A DNA stretch of 64,000 bases, from positions 1 through 64,000 of the forward strand of contig NZET01000028.1 of assembly GCA_002690455.1 (NCBI GenBank). Direction: 5' to 3'. The position numbers and the translations under genes are program-made. The DNA is from Kiloniella sp. (lineage in GTDB: Bacteria > Pseudomonadota > Alphaproteobacteria > UBA7985). This document shows, one piece after another, positions 33,239 through 46,073 of this stretch. The notes under the pieces were generated by a model that was not told the origin of the DNA, did no database searches, and worked only from the letters and a program-made list of their open reading frames with translations. The number at the start of each line of letters is the position of its first letter. Position 1 is the stretch's first letter.

Positions 33239-34825
33239 TCAGGCCGCTTCGCCACCGCTCTCGGCACTGTCGTGATGAGCGTGAACCCGGCGTTCAGACG
33301 CCTGCAACTTGTTCAAAGCGTGGATGTAGGCTCGCGCCGATGCAAACAGCGTGTCGTAGTCTGCACCTGTCCCGGACACCGATCGTCCGTCCTGACTGAG
33401 CCGGACGGTGACTTTAGCCTGTGCATCCGTACCACCGGTGACGGCGTGAACCTGATAAAGATCGAGCTTCTGCCCGTCCTGCCCCGTCGCTTGCTTAATG
33501 CCCTTGAAGATCGCATCGACTGCACCGTTACCCTCGGTGGTCACCGTGTGCACCTCGCTACGAGCCGCAACCGACACATCGACCCGAGCCACACCATGCA
33601 CAATTGAGTGAATCTTCAGGTCTTCAAGGGTATAGGCCGCTTCCTGGTCGCCCGCGCTGTCGTCAACCAACGCAATGATGTCCTCGTCGGTCACGTCCTT
33701 CTTGTGGTCCGCCAGATCCTTGAAGCGGACAAAGGCGTCCTGGAAAGCGTTTTCACCAATATCGCCGTAGCCCAGTTGCTCCAGCTTATTGCGGAAAGCC
33801 GCACGACCGGAATGTTTGCCGAGCACGAGGTTAGTCTTCTGCCAACCCACACTCTCTGGCGTCATGATCTCATAAGTCTGGGCATTTTTGAGCATGCCGT
33901 CCTGGTGGATTCCAGATTCATGCGCAAAGGCGTTGGCACCAACGATGGCCTTGTTGGGTTGCACGGAGAAACCGGTGATCGACTGCAGCATCTGCGAGGC
34001 CCGCACCAATTTGGTGCCGTCTATTCTTGTCCAGTACGGAAGCCGATCACCACGCACTTGCAGCGCCATAGCAACTTCTTCGAGTGAGGCATTGCCGGCC
34101 CGCTCACCGATGCCGTTGATGGTGCACTCGATTTGCCGAGCGCCGGCTGCGACACCGCCCAGTGAATTGGCAACGGCCACCCCAAGATCATTATGGCAGT
34201 GCGTCGAGATGGTACACTTTTCCAGCCCCGGAACGTTGTTCAGCAGCATCTTGATCAGCTCGGCGTATTCATCCGCGACCAGATAGCCGACGGTATCTGG
34301 TACGTTGATGGTTGTTGCGCCAGCCTCTACCGCCGTCTTCACCACATCAACGAGGAAATCAGGGTCTGTTCGGGTGCCGTCTTCGGGAGACCACTCAACA
34401 TCACTCGTCAGGCTGGCTGCGTGAGATACCGACTTGTGAATAGCCTCGAGAACCGCCTCTGGCTCCATGCGCAGCTTGTATTTCATGTGCACAGGCGAGG
34501 TGGAAATGAACGTATGGATGCGCGCATGCGGCGCATACTGCAGTGCTTCCCATGCGCGGTTGATATCGTTCACTGAAGCCCGGCACAAACCAGCGATAAC
34601 AACGTCATCTGAGGCTTGCTTTGCAATGGCTCGCACGGACTCAAAATCACCCTGAGACGCGATGGGAAAACCCGCTTCTATGATGTCCACGCCGAGTTCT
34701 TCCAGCATGGCGGCCATCCGCAGTTTTTCATCGTGATTCATGGAAAAGCCAGGTGACTGCTCGCCGTCACGCAGCGTGGTGTCGAAAATCTTGACGCGGT
34801 TATCGTCGGTCTTTTGCATGCTCAT
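33239..34825 (-). CDS. leuA: 2-isopropylmalate synthase
   Basis: LeuA condenses 2-oxoisovalerate with acetyl-CoA in the first step specific to leucine. The 528-residue protein begins at the ATG at 34825, with AGGA 12 bases upstream; the longer frame to 34951 reads into the leader. The catalytic TIM barrel has FDTTLRDGEQSPG and the metal-binding HCHNDLGVA; ECTINGIGERAGN is the family signature 2. The C-terminal regulatory domain (about residues 385-515) holds the leucine feedback site by family knowledge. A leucine-rich leader peptide lies upstream. Confidence 0.96.
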   Translation of the reverse strand: MSMQKTDDNRVKIFDTTLRDGEQSPGFSMNHDEKLRMAAMLEELGVDIIEAGFPIASQGDFESVRAIAKQASDDVVIAGLCRASVNDINRAWEALQYAPHARIHTFISTSPVHMKYKLRMEPEAVLEAIHKSVSHAASLTSDVEWSPEDGTRTDPDFLVDVVKTAVEAGATTINVPDTVGYLVADEYAELIKMLLNNVPGLEKCTISTHCHNDLGVAVANSLGGVAAGARQIECTINGIGERAGNASLEEVAMALQVRGDRLPYWTRIDGTKLVRASQMLQSITGFSVQPNKAIVGANAFAHESGIHQDGMLKNAQTYEIMTPESVGWQKTNLVLGKHSGRAAFRNKLEQLGYGDIGENAFQDAFVRFKDLADHKKDVTDEDIIALVDDSAGDQEAAYTLEDLKIHSIVHGVARVDVSVAARSEVHTVTTEGNGAVDAIFKGIKQATGQDGQKLDLYQVHAVTGGTDAQAKVTVRLSQDGRSVSGTGADYDTLFASARAYIHALNKLQASERRVHAHHDSAESGGEAA

Positions 34826-34928
34826 TTCTTCTGGTCCTGCTCTCGGCACCGGGCTCACCCATGATTCAACAATGGTTTTTCGAGCGTTGGGTCGCCGTGT
34901 TTTCGCTTTTGAAGGAAAAGATTTCAAG

Positions 34929-34973
34929 CCCCTGATCGCATGCCGGTTCACTGCCCGGCTGAGACGTCAGGGG
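34929..34973 (-). promoter_or_regulatory. hairpin of a putative leuA attenuator
   Basis: On the minus strand CCCCTGA (34973-34967) can pair with TCAGGGG (34935-34929), with GCCGG/CCGGC pairing inside the loop. Downstream is CTTGAAATCTTTTCC, a weak T-run. The 5' arm includes the stop codon of the leader peptide, so a translating ribosome would hide it. This is the expected geometry for ribosome-controlled attenuation. The strength of the terminator is in doubt because the T-run is interrupted. Confidence 0.4.
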
Positions 34974-35002
34974 CGAAATAGAAGCAGAGCAGTAAGGACC
35001 AT
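34967..35002 (-). CDS. putative leucine leader peptide LeuL
   Basis: The minus strand encodes MVLTALLLFRP followed by TGA, with four leucine codons (CTT, CTG, CTT, CTA) in 11 residues, three of them in a row. An in-frame ATG 12 bases earlier (35014) would add MNSG. It lies 142 bases upstream of leuA and ends inside the arm of a hairpin. The composition and position match leu operon leader peptides, but the ribosome-binding site is poor. It is too short for routine gene calls. Confidence 0.5.
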   Translation of the reverse strand: MVLTALLLFRP

Positions 35003-35050
35003 GCCGGAATTCATGGAATGATCGAAACATGGCTTGGCCGATTTGGCAAA

Positions 35051-35090
35051 GAAAAAAACAAAGGGGCGGAGACCCTGTGGCCCCGCCCCT
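35051..35090 (-). terminator. rho-independent terminator of ilvBNC
   Basis: On the minus strand AGGGGCGG pairs with CCGCCCCT around a 13-base loop, followed by TTGTTTTTTTC. It ends the ilvC transcript 57 bases past the stop, so leuA needs its own promoter, in the bases near 35000-35050. Confidence 0.88.
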
Positions 35091-35146
35091 GCATATAATG
35101 TTGTATCGCCCCCGGAGGGATCGGCCATTATTCCGGCCTGCGAGAC

Positions 35147-36289
<1,143 letters not shown>

Positions 36290-36871: not shown

Positions 36872-38671
36872 TCAGACCAGCGCAAGGCCTTCGCCCTGAA
36901 TCGCGGCGGCAACCTTTTCCTGGCTCGCGCCGGGGAGCAGCATGTCGTAGTGCGGCTTGCCCGATGGAATCATGGGGAAGCAGTTCTCGTCCTTGGTCAC
37001 GCAACAGTCAAAGATTGTCATCACATCACTGTCCAGCATCTCTTGGATCGCGGAATCCAGCTCGCTTTCCTTGGTCGCACGGATCCCTTTGGCGCCGAAA
37101 CTTTCGGCCAGCTTGACGAAGTCCGGCAGGCTGTCGGTGTAGGATTCAGCATAGCGACCGCCATGCAGAAGCTCCTGCCACTGGCGCACCATACCCATCC
37201 ACTGGTTGTTGATAATCATAATCTTGACCGGTAGCCGGTACTGAACGGCCGTCGACAGCTCCTGGATATTCATCAGGATCGAAGCCTCACCCGCAACGTC
37301 AATGCAGCAGGCGCCAGGGTTGCCAATCTGCATGCCAATGGCCGCAGGGAAGCCATAGCCCATGGTCCCAAGCCCACCAGAGGTCATCCAACGGTTTGGT
37401 TTTTCGAAACCAATATACTGCGCGGCCCACATCTGATGCTGACCGACCTCTGTAGAAATAAGGACATCATCCCGATGCTTGGTCAGCTCATGCAGGCGCT
37501 TAAGCGCGTGCTGAGGGCGAATTTCCACCTCGCCCTTAGCCTGGGAGAAGCCCAGGCAGTCGACCCCACGCCATTGCTCAATCTGCTCCCACCAGCCCTT
37601 CAGCGCGCCCGCGTCAAGGTTCAGCGCCTTGGAGCGCCAAAGGCGTATCATGTCTTCGAGAACGTGAGCCGCATCACCCACAATTGGAAGGTCGACCAAT
37701 ACGTTCTTGTTGATTGACGAGGGATCGATATCCACGTGAATCTTGGTCGAGTTCGGCGAGAACTCATCGATCTTCCCCGTGATGCGGTCGTCGAAACGAG
37801 CGCCGATGTTCAGCATGACATCACAGTTGTACATGGCCAGATTGGCCTCGTAGGTGCCGTGCATGCCCAGCATCCCGACAAATTGCCTGTCAGACGCAGG
37901 ATAAGCCCCCAGTCCCATCAGCGTGTTGGTGATCGGCACGCCAGTCATCCGCGTGAACTCAACCAACAACTGCGATGCCGCTGGCCCGGCATTGATCACC
38001 CCGCCGCCGGCATAGATGATTGGCCGCTTTGCCTGCGAGAGCGCTTCAACCGCTTTCTCGATCTGCGCCAGATCGCCCTTCATCCGCGGCTTATAAGAGG
38101 GGCGGCGGACATCTGACTTCTTCTTGTAGACGTCGGTTTTGTTCATCAGCACGTCTTTTGGCAGATCGATCACAACAGGGCCGGGGCGTCCGGTGGCTGC
38201 CACCAGAAAGGCCTCGTGGACCACGCCTGAAACGTCATTTACCTGCTTAACCAGATAGTTGTGTTTGGTACATGCACGGGTGATGCCGGTGGTGTCTGCC
38301 TCCTGAAAAGCGTCCTGGCCGATCAGATGGGTTGGCACCTGCCCGGTCAGGCAGACTATAGGGATAGAGTCCATCAGTGCATCGGTCAGCCCTGTGACGG
38401 CATTGGTCGCGCCGGGGCCAGAGGTCACCAGCACACATCCAACTTTGCCGGTTGAGCGCGCATAGCCTTCGGCAGCATGCACAGCAGCCTGCTCATGCCG
38501 GACAAGAATGTGTCGGATGGAATTCTGTTGAAATAGCGCGTCGTAAATCGGCAGCACTGCCCCGCCGGGGTAGCCGAATATGACCTCAACCCCCTGCTCA
38601 ACCAGAGCGGTGATCAGGGTTTCTGCACCAGTTTTTATATCGCTCATTTTAGGTTCCGCATGTACCGTCAT
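36872..38671 (-). CDS. ilvB: acetolactate synthase catalytic subunit
   Basis: This ThDP enzyme (599 residues) joins pyruvate units to acetolactate. The catalytic glutamate lies in RHEQAAVHAAEGYAR. The FAD-binding and central domains are present. The ThDP/Mg motif usually reads GDGS or GDAS; here it is GEAS (codon GAG at 37288-37286), so Glu replaces the Asp metal ligand, followed by the usual NNQW. An in-frame ATG at 38647 (MSDIKTG) has a GGAA box and is an alternative start. ilvN follows. Upstream lies miaA, 82 bases away. Confidence 0.95.
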   Translation of the reverse strand: MTVHAEPKMSDIKTGAETLITALVEQGVEVIFGYPGGAVLPIYDALFQQNSIRHILVRHEQAAVHAAEGYARSTGKVGCVLVTSGPGATNAVTGLTDALMDSIPIVCLTGQVPTHLIGQDAFQEADTTGITRACTKHNYLVKQVNDVSGVVHEAFLVAATGRPGPVVIDLPKDVLMNKTDVYKKKSDVRRPSYKPRMKGDLAQIEKAVEALSQAKRPIIYAGGGVINAGPAASQLLVEFTRMTGVPITNTLMGLGAYPASDRQFVGMLGMHGTYEANLAMYNCDVMLNIGARFDDRITGKIDEFSPNSTKIHVDIDPSSINKNVLVDLPIVGDAAHVLEDMIRLWRSKALNLDAGALKGWWEQIEQWRGVDCLGFSQAKGEVEIRPQHALKRLHELTKHRDDVLISTEVGQHQMWAAQYIGFEKPNRWMTSGGLGTMGYGFPAAIGMQIGNPGACCIDVAGEASILMNIQELSTAVQYRLPVKIMIINNQWMGMVRQWQELLHGGRYAESYTDSLPDFVKLAESFGAKGIRATKESELDSAIQEMLDSDVMTIFDCCVTKDENCFPMIPSGKPHYDMLLPGASQEKVAAAIQGEGLALV

Positions 38672-38753
38672 TGCCCGAATGGTCTGCGCGCCAGACGCTG
38701 GGGCCCGACCTCTCCTTCAGGCTATACAGACTGCACAAACAGGGTCAACCGGC

Positions 38754-39665
38754 CTAGCCAATAACTGACAAGATATCAGCCTTGATGTTTTCTATATATG
38801 ACTTTTCAATGGGGTAATTTTGAAATTTTGTTGCGTATTGCATTTGATTTCGCCCCCACGTCAGCTGCCGTTTCGCATATTGTCGGGAAGCGGCACAGGC
38901 CCGCTCGGTTGCCTCTGCCACGTCTAGCCTACCTTTTAGCACAGAAAGTAGTTCGGGCACTCCCACGGCGCGCATGATAGGCAGGGCTGACGACAACCCC
39001 TGCCCAGCCAGTGCCCTCACCTCATCCAGCGCACCGTCGGCGAGCATTTGTTCAAAGCGTTGGTTGATGCGTTCATGCAGGTGCCCGCGCGCCGGCGCCA
39101 GATCAAAGACTGGAAACGGGCCCAGCCCGCCCACTCGCTCACCCTGCCATTGCGAAAGCGCCCGACCCGTGGCTTCAGTAACCGACCAACTGCGTACCAA
39201 ACGCTGTGGATCCACCACCGTTGGCGGCGTACCGGGGTCGCGGCTTAGAACCTCGGCGCGAAAGGCGTCCAGTCCCAGCGCCTCCAGCCGCGCTTCGGCT
39301 GTGCGACGTATCTCAGCGGAGGGTTCGGGAATATCGGACAAACCTTCATAGAGGGCCTTCAGGTACAAACCTGTGCCGCCCACGAGGATTACAGGGCGTG
39401 GCGCCAGCTCAGCAAGCTCCGCCCGTACCAGCGCCACCCAGCGTGCGACCGAGCATGGATCCCGTCCGACCAGCACTCCGTAAAGCCGGTGCTCTGCCGC
39501 CGCTTCTTCTGCCACACTGGGTCGTGCCGTGACGATGCGCAGATCGGCATAGACCTGCATGGAGTCCGCGTTAAGGATGGCTGCGCCCGTCGCCCCCGCC
39601 AACTCGATAGCGAGCGCGGTCTTCCCCGACGCGGTGGGGCCGTAAATGGCGCAAAGGGCAGTCAT
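38754..39665 (-). CDS. miaA: tRNA dimethylallyltransferase
   Basis: MiaA adds a dimethylallyl group to A37 of tRNAs reading U-starting codons. The 303-residue protein has the P-loop YGPTASGKTALA, the DSMQVYADL loop with the catalytic Asp and VGGTGLYLKALYEG. The C-terminal helix region reads RQYAKRQLTWGRNQ, typical of MiaA. The last 28 codons are AT-rich (KFQNYPIEKSYIENIKADIL), unlike the rest of the gene, and look like a late addition or diverged tail. It is followed by ilvB. Confidence 0.94.
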   Translation of the reverse strand: MTALCAIYGPTASGKTALAIELAGATGAAILNADSMQVYADLRIVTARPSVAEEAAAEHRLYGVLVGRDPCSVARWVALVRAELAELAPRPVILVGGTGLYLKALYEGLSDIPEPSAEIRRTAEARLEALGLDAFRAEVLSRDPGTPPTVVDPQRLVRSWSVTEATGRALSQWQGERVGGLGPFPVFDLAPARGHLHERINQRFEQMLADGALDEVRALAGQGLSSALPIMRAVGVPELLSVLKGRLDVAEATERACAASRQYAKRQLTWGRNQMQYATKFQNYPIEKSYIENIKADILSVIG

Positions 39666-45669: not shown

Positions 45670-45690
45670 GATGAGATCATCACTACCCAA

Positions 45691-45718
45691 TTGCATGGCC
45701 GGTGAAAACGCTTATATT
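45691..45718 (+). promoter_or_regulatory. ssrA promoter
   Basis: TTGCAT (45691-45696) and TATATT (45713-45718) are 16 bases apart, giving a start near 45725, just before the acceptor half of the tmRNA. The box overlaps the divergent thyX start region. Confidence 0.55.
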
Positions 45719-45724
45719 AACAGG

Positions 45725-46036
45725 TGAGCTTCGCTCTATGGCGATAAACCAAGCAGGTAATAGATGTTGCGGACCCGGGGGCGGTACCCGGCGCCTCCAC
45801 CAATGAGCCAATCAAATGCCGGTTGGCTGATTGCTGGGGGCGAAATAGGATCGACGTGCATTGAAAGCTGTTTGTTTTGCCCGTGATGATTCCGGCGTAA
45901 CCGGGTCGTTAAACACAGTTGCAAACAACTATGTTGCTCCGCGTGCTGCTCTCGCTGCGTAAGCAGCTGAGCCCGCGAAACTGAATCCCTGTACATTAGC
46001 ATGTGCAGGTGGGGTCTTGGGCACCTAGCAACAGAA
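45725..46036 (+). ncRNA. ssrA: two-piece (circularly permuted) tmRNA
   Basis: This is an alphaproteobacterial permuted tmRNA gene. The acceptor half comes first and ends ...CGCCTCCACCA (45792-45802), with the T arm GACCCGG...CCCGG before it. After a 33-base spacer, the coding half starts GGGGGCGAAATAGGATCGAC (45836). Its GGGGGCG pairs with CGCCTCC, restoring the acceptor stem, and CTGTTTG (in the coding half) pairs with CAAGCAG (in the acceptor half) as helix P2. The tag frame runs 45921-45962 and encodes ANNYVAPRAALAA, the degradation tag added to stalled proteins. A CCTGTACAT-TAGC-ATGTGCAGG hairpin follows. The exact ends are estimates; the mature RNA needs spacer removal. sspB lies downstream. 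Confidence 0.9.
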
Positions 46037-46073
46037 CGCCCAATTCTCTCCCTCATACATGAATCGCGCATAT

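Follow-up and report, generated by a model that had tools for sequence, protein, structure and literature searches.

A leucine-codon leader before leuA in Alphaproteobacteria, with a probable role in ribosome-mediated control

The textbook role of amino-acid leader peptides is in transcription attenuation, and the leuA gene studied here is preceded by what could be taken for such a leader: a short upstream open reading frame (uORF) with three consecutive Leu codons that runs into a hairpin. This raises the question of whether the arrangement is more than chance, whether it answers to leucine and at which step it would act on leuA. The window, by which we mean the whole stretch of 64,000 nucleotides of the Kiloniella sp. 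contig that was analysed, comes from an alphaproteobacterium, as judged by its alpha-type tmRNA. The gene for this (permuted) tmRNA lies at 45687-46045 and scores 231 bits.

The uORF and its start

The family assignments give the order ilvB, ilvH, ilvC and leuA on the minus strand (the features of the leader are collected in the table). Downstream of ilvC lies a hairpin with a long T-run, which is taken as the ilvC terminator, so that leuA is probably driven from its own promoter. The gap between miaA and ilvB (38671-38754) is only ~80 nt long and is without an obvious branched-chain leader peptide, unlike other alphaproteobacterial ilv operons.

Features of the leuA leader and its surroundings in the window
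Feature	Position	Strand	Evidence
Hairpin and long T-run 3' of ilvC, taken as the ilvC terminator	35050..35096	-	sequence, by eye
-35-like box of the putative leader promoter, TTGCCA	35044..35049	-	same in all five congeneric loci, by eye
-10-like box, TTCGAT (TTTCAT and TTTGAT in congeners)	35021..35026	-	congener sequences and alignment
uORF (leader peptide) MNSGMVLTALLLFRP*, probably leaderless	34967..35014	-	reading frame; start codon conserved within the genus
P1, 5' strand: stretch of Leu codons with several predicted pairing registers against the leuA RBS	34982..35000	-	predicted leader fold
Consecutive Leu codons CTG-CTT-CTA (codons -6, -5 and -4 before the stop)	34979..34987	-	sequence
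P2, 5' arm CCCCTGA, which holds the uORF stop	34967..34973	-	covariation, 73 distinct arm pairs
P2, 3' arm TCAGGGG	34929..34935	-	covariation, 73 distinct arm pairs
P1, 3' strand: leuA RBS region AGAGCAGGACCAGAAGAA, with SD AGGA at 34838-34835	34826..34843	-	duplex comparison and fold
leuA, 2-isopropylmalate synthase, ATG at 34825	33239..34825	-	NCBIfam equivalogs NF002087 and TIGR00973 above cut-off

The uORF reads ATG AAT TCC GGC ATG GTC CTT ACT GCT CTG CTT CTA TTT CGC CCC TGA, i.e. 15 codons from the ATG at 35014 to the stop at 34969-34967, with a second, internal ATG in frame at 35002. An earlier note, made from the sequence of the window, had described three consecutive Leu codons in a leader peptide upstream of leuA and a stop inside the 5' arm of the hairpin CCCCTGA/TCAGGGG; both are there. 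It had started the peptide at 35002 (MVLTALLLFRP), which is probably the internal ATG. The window and four congeners (L001-L005) all have promoter-like boxes with a 17-nt spacer, and in 5/5 of these loci the -10-like box ends 6-7 nt 5' of an ATG that is in frame with the Leu codons and corresponds to 35014. No SD precedes this ATG in any of the five. The position of the boxes together with the lack of an SD makes 35014 the most likely start of the uORF and suggests that transcription begins at or beside this ATG, i.e. that the uORF may be leaderless. A transcript start downstream of 34967, which would have told against the leader, is without support.

The TTCGAT box is a weak match to the consensus and was missed by an E. 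coli-type promoter scan. Boxes at matching spacing are also seen in L006, L007 and L010, and a soft promoter score shows a modest class-wide peak 5-8 nt before in-frame ATGs. Across the class a strict promoter consensus, that of E. coli, is seen for 2/172 in-frame ATGs, and neither this test nor a base profile confirms a leaderless start. A published leaderless leader peptide exists in Alphaproteobacteria, that of Sinorhizobium meliloti trpL, the transcript of which begins at the ATG, as is proposed for the leuA uORF; unlike the leuA leader, trpL has Trp codons and a transcription terminator (PMC7298713).

Conservation of the leader and its Leu codons

LeuA was used as bait in 61 genomes, and loci with a LeuA identity of at least 53% were regarded as strong. 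Of the first 28 such loci, 24 have the same combination of uORF and hairpin. These 24 loci were picked by hairpin and position only, disregarding the codons, and were the basis of a covariance model, which matches 53/58 named alphaproteobacterial leuA loci and 0/22 from other classes. A class-wide sample gave matches in 93 of 289 genomes, mostly one per genome and usually beside leuA, and the 26 matches from a phylum-wide draw are all alphaproteobacterial. The genome of the window itself has a single match (E = 1.7e-12; the next best has 0.27). Among the distinct full-length matches, 119 have a LeuA motif just downstream and a further 14 have LeuA there according to tblastn; for five weak full-length matches no LeuA was found downstream by motif or by tblastn. 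The recurrence at leuA throughout the class and the unique match in its own genome show that the arrangement is not due to chance, and the observation of a leader before leuA is thereby confirmed. The family f162, which mostly has genomes of ~6 Mb, lacks the element in those of its genomes listed in the phylum-wide draw, though many other members of the class carry it; this is possibly a family-wide loss.

The Leu codons are conserved with the hairpin, so that the absence of conservation among relatives that the earlier note had named as grounds for dropping its proposal is not what we find. Among the 24 loci, which were not chosen by their codons, 23 have Leu at codon -4 and 22 have it at codon -6. 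Leu makes up 40% of the last 12 uORF codons, and CTT and CTA together account for 57% of the Leu codons in the uORFs compared with 7% in leuA; the model used to find the loci behind these percentages itself contains the codon columns, and the unbiased figure is 23/24. The other two reading frames have no comparable series of Leu codons, except for TTA from a constant CTTA. The Leu codons also stay fixed relative to the hairpin, even where the stop is displaced (see below). When codon -4 occupies the A site, the P2 arm would start 8 nt from the first base of the codon, within the footprint of the ribosome. Ribosome-mediated, leucine-specific control of leuA is thus well supported by comparison of the loci, because the Leu codons are fixed with respect to the hairpin, specific to one frame and biased towards CTT and CTA, occur in many families and are nearly always beside leuA.

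The P2 hairpin and the question of termination

The two arms of P2 covary. In a set of 73 distinct arm pairs, 667 of 730 cells are paired, compared with 619 ± 5 when the 3' arms are shuffled among the loci, and an earlier, smaller count pointed in the same direction; the compensated variants include CCTCTGA/TCAGAGG, CCCCTAA/TTAGGGG and CCCTTAG/CTAAGGG. The uORF stop falls within the P2 arm in 110/119 loci. The other nine have sense codons there and a stop shifted downstream, eight of them with CCCCTGG and one with another sequence. The loci with CCCCTGG in place of CCCCTGA (L047, L048, L055, L063, L066, L131, L132 and L200; also L070 and L079) keep the Leu codons and the hairpin, which rules out the stop codon in the arm as an essential feature. 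Arrest of the nascent peptide at a Pro-stop is not favoured either, as the last residue can be Leu or Ala (L021 and L024).

The CCCC/GGGG arms are more constant than base pairing alone would need. This would fit a regulator or processing enzyme (a protein or an RNase) that recognizes P2, with translation of the uORF merely keeping the hairpin open, and a protein has been proposed for the actinobacterial LEU element (PMC1262725). On its own, such a factor would account neither for the fixed Leu codons nor for the pairing P1 described below, and we consider it very improbable.

In a classical attenuator, P2 or some other structure before leuA would act as an intrinsic terminator unless a ribosome stalled on the Leu codons. 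The leader peptide, the Leu codons and the hairpin that this calls for are all present, and it is the mode of the alphaproteobacterial trpL and ilv leaders (PMC7298713, PMC4117421). The sequence 3' of P2 has little of the character of a terminator. No T-run follows the hairpin in the window, and a terminator scan of the minus strand between P2 and leuA found none there. The mean T count in the 8 nt after P2 is slightly above that of the control (1.9 versus 1.3), and a true T-run is present in L024, a distant locus, but at least five T in these 8 nt are found at only 3.6% of the hairpins. Searching the whole leader up to leuA gave terminator-like sites in 5/108 loci, with 2.9 expected, which is near chance, and intrinsic termination by P2 or another stem was rejected as a general mechanism. 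As termination would also leave the complementarity between the Leu codons and the leuA RBS unexplained, we regard this reading as quite unlikely. The earlier note had proposed ribosome-mediated attenuation while remarking on a weak T-run. Its leucine-specific control by the ribosome is supported by the conserved, frame-specific Leu codons; the hairpin as an intrinsic terminator, lacking a U-run, does not hold.

Termination could instead depend on Rho. Its target would be the untranslated RNA that separates the uORF from leuA, shielded or exposed according to the position of the ribosome, and P1 would contribute by stopping the translation of leuA. This would be allowed by the spacer, which lacks a terminator and in most loci measures some 50-110 nt; the same has been proposed for other leader peptides that lack terminators (PMC1262725), and it could work jointly with a translational switch. 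We found nothing specific to Rho in these leaders and think its involvement unlikely.

Predicted pairing of the Leu codons with the leuA RBS

The aside in the earlier note that an anti-SD or another mechanism might be at work comes nearer to the evidence. It is the Leu-codon segment and not the hairpin that is complementary to the RBS region of leuA. For 108 loci, a 30-nt segment containing the Leu codons was compared with the 46 nt that surround the leuA start, with GC-matched (GC-binned) swaps as the background. The mean duplex energy is -18.9 for the native pairs and -16.2 ± 0.29 (sd) for the swaps, the lowest of 2000 permutations being -17.3. The excess disappears (z near 0) when the Leu-codon segment is replaced by windows lying further 5', or the RBS region by other parts of the leader or of leuA; windows that overlap the Leu-codon segment give intermediate values. 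Perfect runs of at least 8 bp are present in 21/108 loci (3.8 ± 1.8 expected from swaps) and runs of at least 9 bp in 12 (1.0 ± 0.9); examples are TTCTTCTTACGCT with AGCGTAAGAAGGA in L077, TCCTTAGCC with GGCTAAGGA in L065, CTACTAAGC with GCTTAGTAG in L083 and GTCCTTCG with CGAAGGAC in L118. Restricting the comparison to 20 dissimilar loci leaves the excess in place (z = -5.0). On the leuA side, the ensemble pairing probability has its maximum at -13 to -10, which is the SD.

P1 has no fixed register. The registers vary even among members of the genus of the window, some loci have the partner 5' of the SD, and in about half of the loci the complementarity is no greater than in the swapped background. 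The longest perfect run in the window is CTGCTCT::AGAGCAG (7 bp), and the predicted fold places the SD AGGA opposite the Leu codons (fold z = -2.6). The modelled probability of the window RBS being unpaired goes up from 0.34 in the free leader to 0.67 when codon -4 is occupied by a ribosome. The mean modelled gain in RBS accessibility on stalling is +0.038 for native leaders and +0.029 to +0.032 for swapped leaders, a narrow difference that is due to the tendency of any SD to pair with CUU and CUC codons; this calculation therefore lends a translational model no specific support.

On balance we favour a leucine-responsive leader that would control leuA through ribosome stalling, most likely at the initiation of translation, and consider this reading somewhat probable from the comparison of the loci. 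Transcription would start at or next to the ATG at 35014, and a ribosome would then translate the short uORF. When leucine is plentiful the ribosome would clear the Leu codons, terminate in the P2 arm and depart; P2 (CCCCUGA::UCAGGGG) could then form and the freed Leu-codon segment could pair with the leuA RBS as P1, so that leuA would be poorly initiated. When leucyl-tRNA is scarce the ribosome would wait on the Leu codons, covering the Leu-codon segment and the first part of the P2 arm with its footprint; this would keep P1 from forming and leave the SD free, so that leuA would be made. Comparison of the sequences shows the uORF, its frame-specific Leu codons and their fixed position, the covariation of P2, the excess complementarity of P1 and the association with leuA; we infer the leaderless start, the stalling, the occlusion of the RBS and the direction of control in this scheme.

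The closest precedent is the actinobacterial LEU element (Seliverstov et al., 2005; PMC1262725), which shares with the alphaproteobacterial leader a Leu-rich uORF before leuA, Leu codons that are predicted to pair with the leuA SD and the lack of a terminator. In the alphaproteobacterial loci the stem between the Leu codons and the SD region exists as a statistical excess over 108 loci and not in each of them. The LEU element has an internal pseudoknot or an alternative hairpin, whereas the hairpin of the alphaproteobacterial leader is simple, with CCCC/GGGG arms, one of which holds the uORF stop. In Streptomyces, the outcome of mutating the Leu codons was reportedly not in keeping with attenuation (PMC1262725). 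The enterobacterial Leu leader (RF00512) likewise has a run of Leu codons in a leader peptide before leuA but acts through an intrinsic terminator; of these marks of a classical attenuator, the leader studied here has the short Leu-rich peptide and not the terminator before the gene. RF00512 gave no match at its gathering score, nor at E ≤ 10 over 34780-35180, and an Rfam search of the leader returned only sub-threshold chance matches and no such family. The alphaproteobacterial ilvB/ilvIH leaders, as far as they are covered by the summary of Vitreschak et al. (2004) in PMC1273637 and by the Caulobacter work (PMC4117421), belong to the same class of bacteria and encode a branched-chain leader peptide, but have a terminator hairpin and precede other genes. 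In the open literature we found no paper that describes an alphaproteobacterial leuA leader, although Vitreschak et al. (2004) may mention one.

We give about an even chance to the wider proposal that this is a class-wide, as yet unnamed alphaproteobacterial RNA element in which the Leu codons serve as the anti-Shine-Dalgarno strand that sequesters the leuA RBS, tied to leucine synthesis as a function and resembling the LEU element by convergence or ancient descent. If true, it would be a simple and testable translational version of an amino-acid leader, in which the sensor codons themselves pair with the RBS of the gene; it would explain the control of leuA in many alphaproteobacteria and would offer a point of comparison for the actinobacterial LEU element. 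Three of the 14 loci recognized by tblastn (L140, L167 and L197) precede a distant LeuA of the PRK03739 type with 27-32% identity (two were family-checked), as if the gene had been replaced behind a retained leader; this suggests that the leader follows the function and not one gene lineage. In L166 and L082 a short cupin-like gene lies between the element and leuA, and the leuA start is ~400 nt further downstream.
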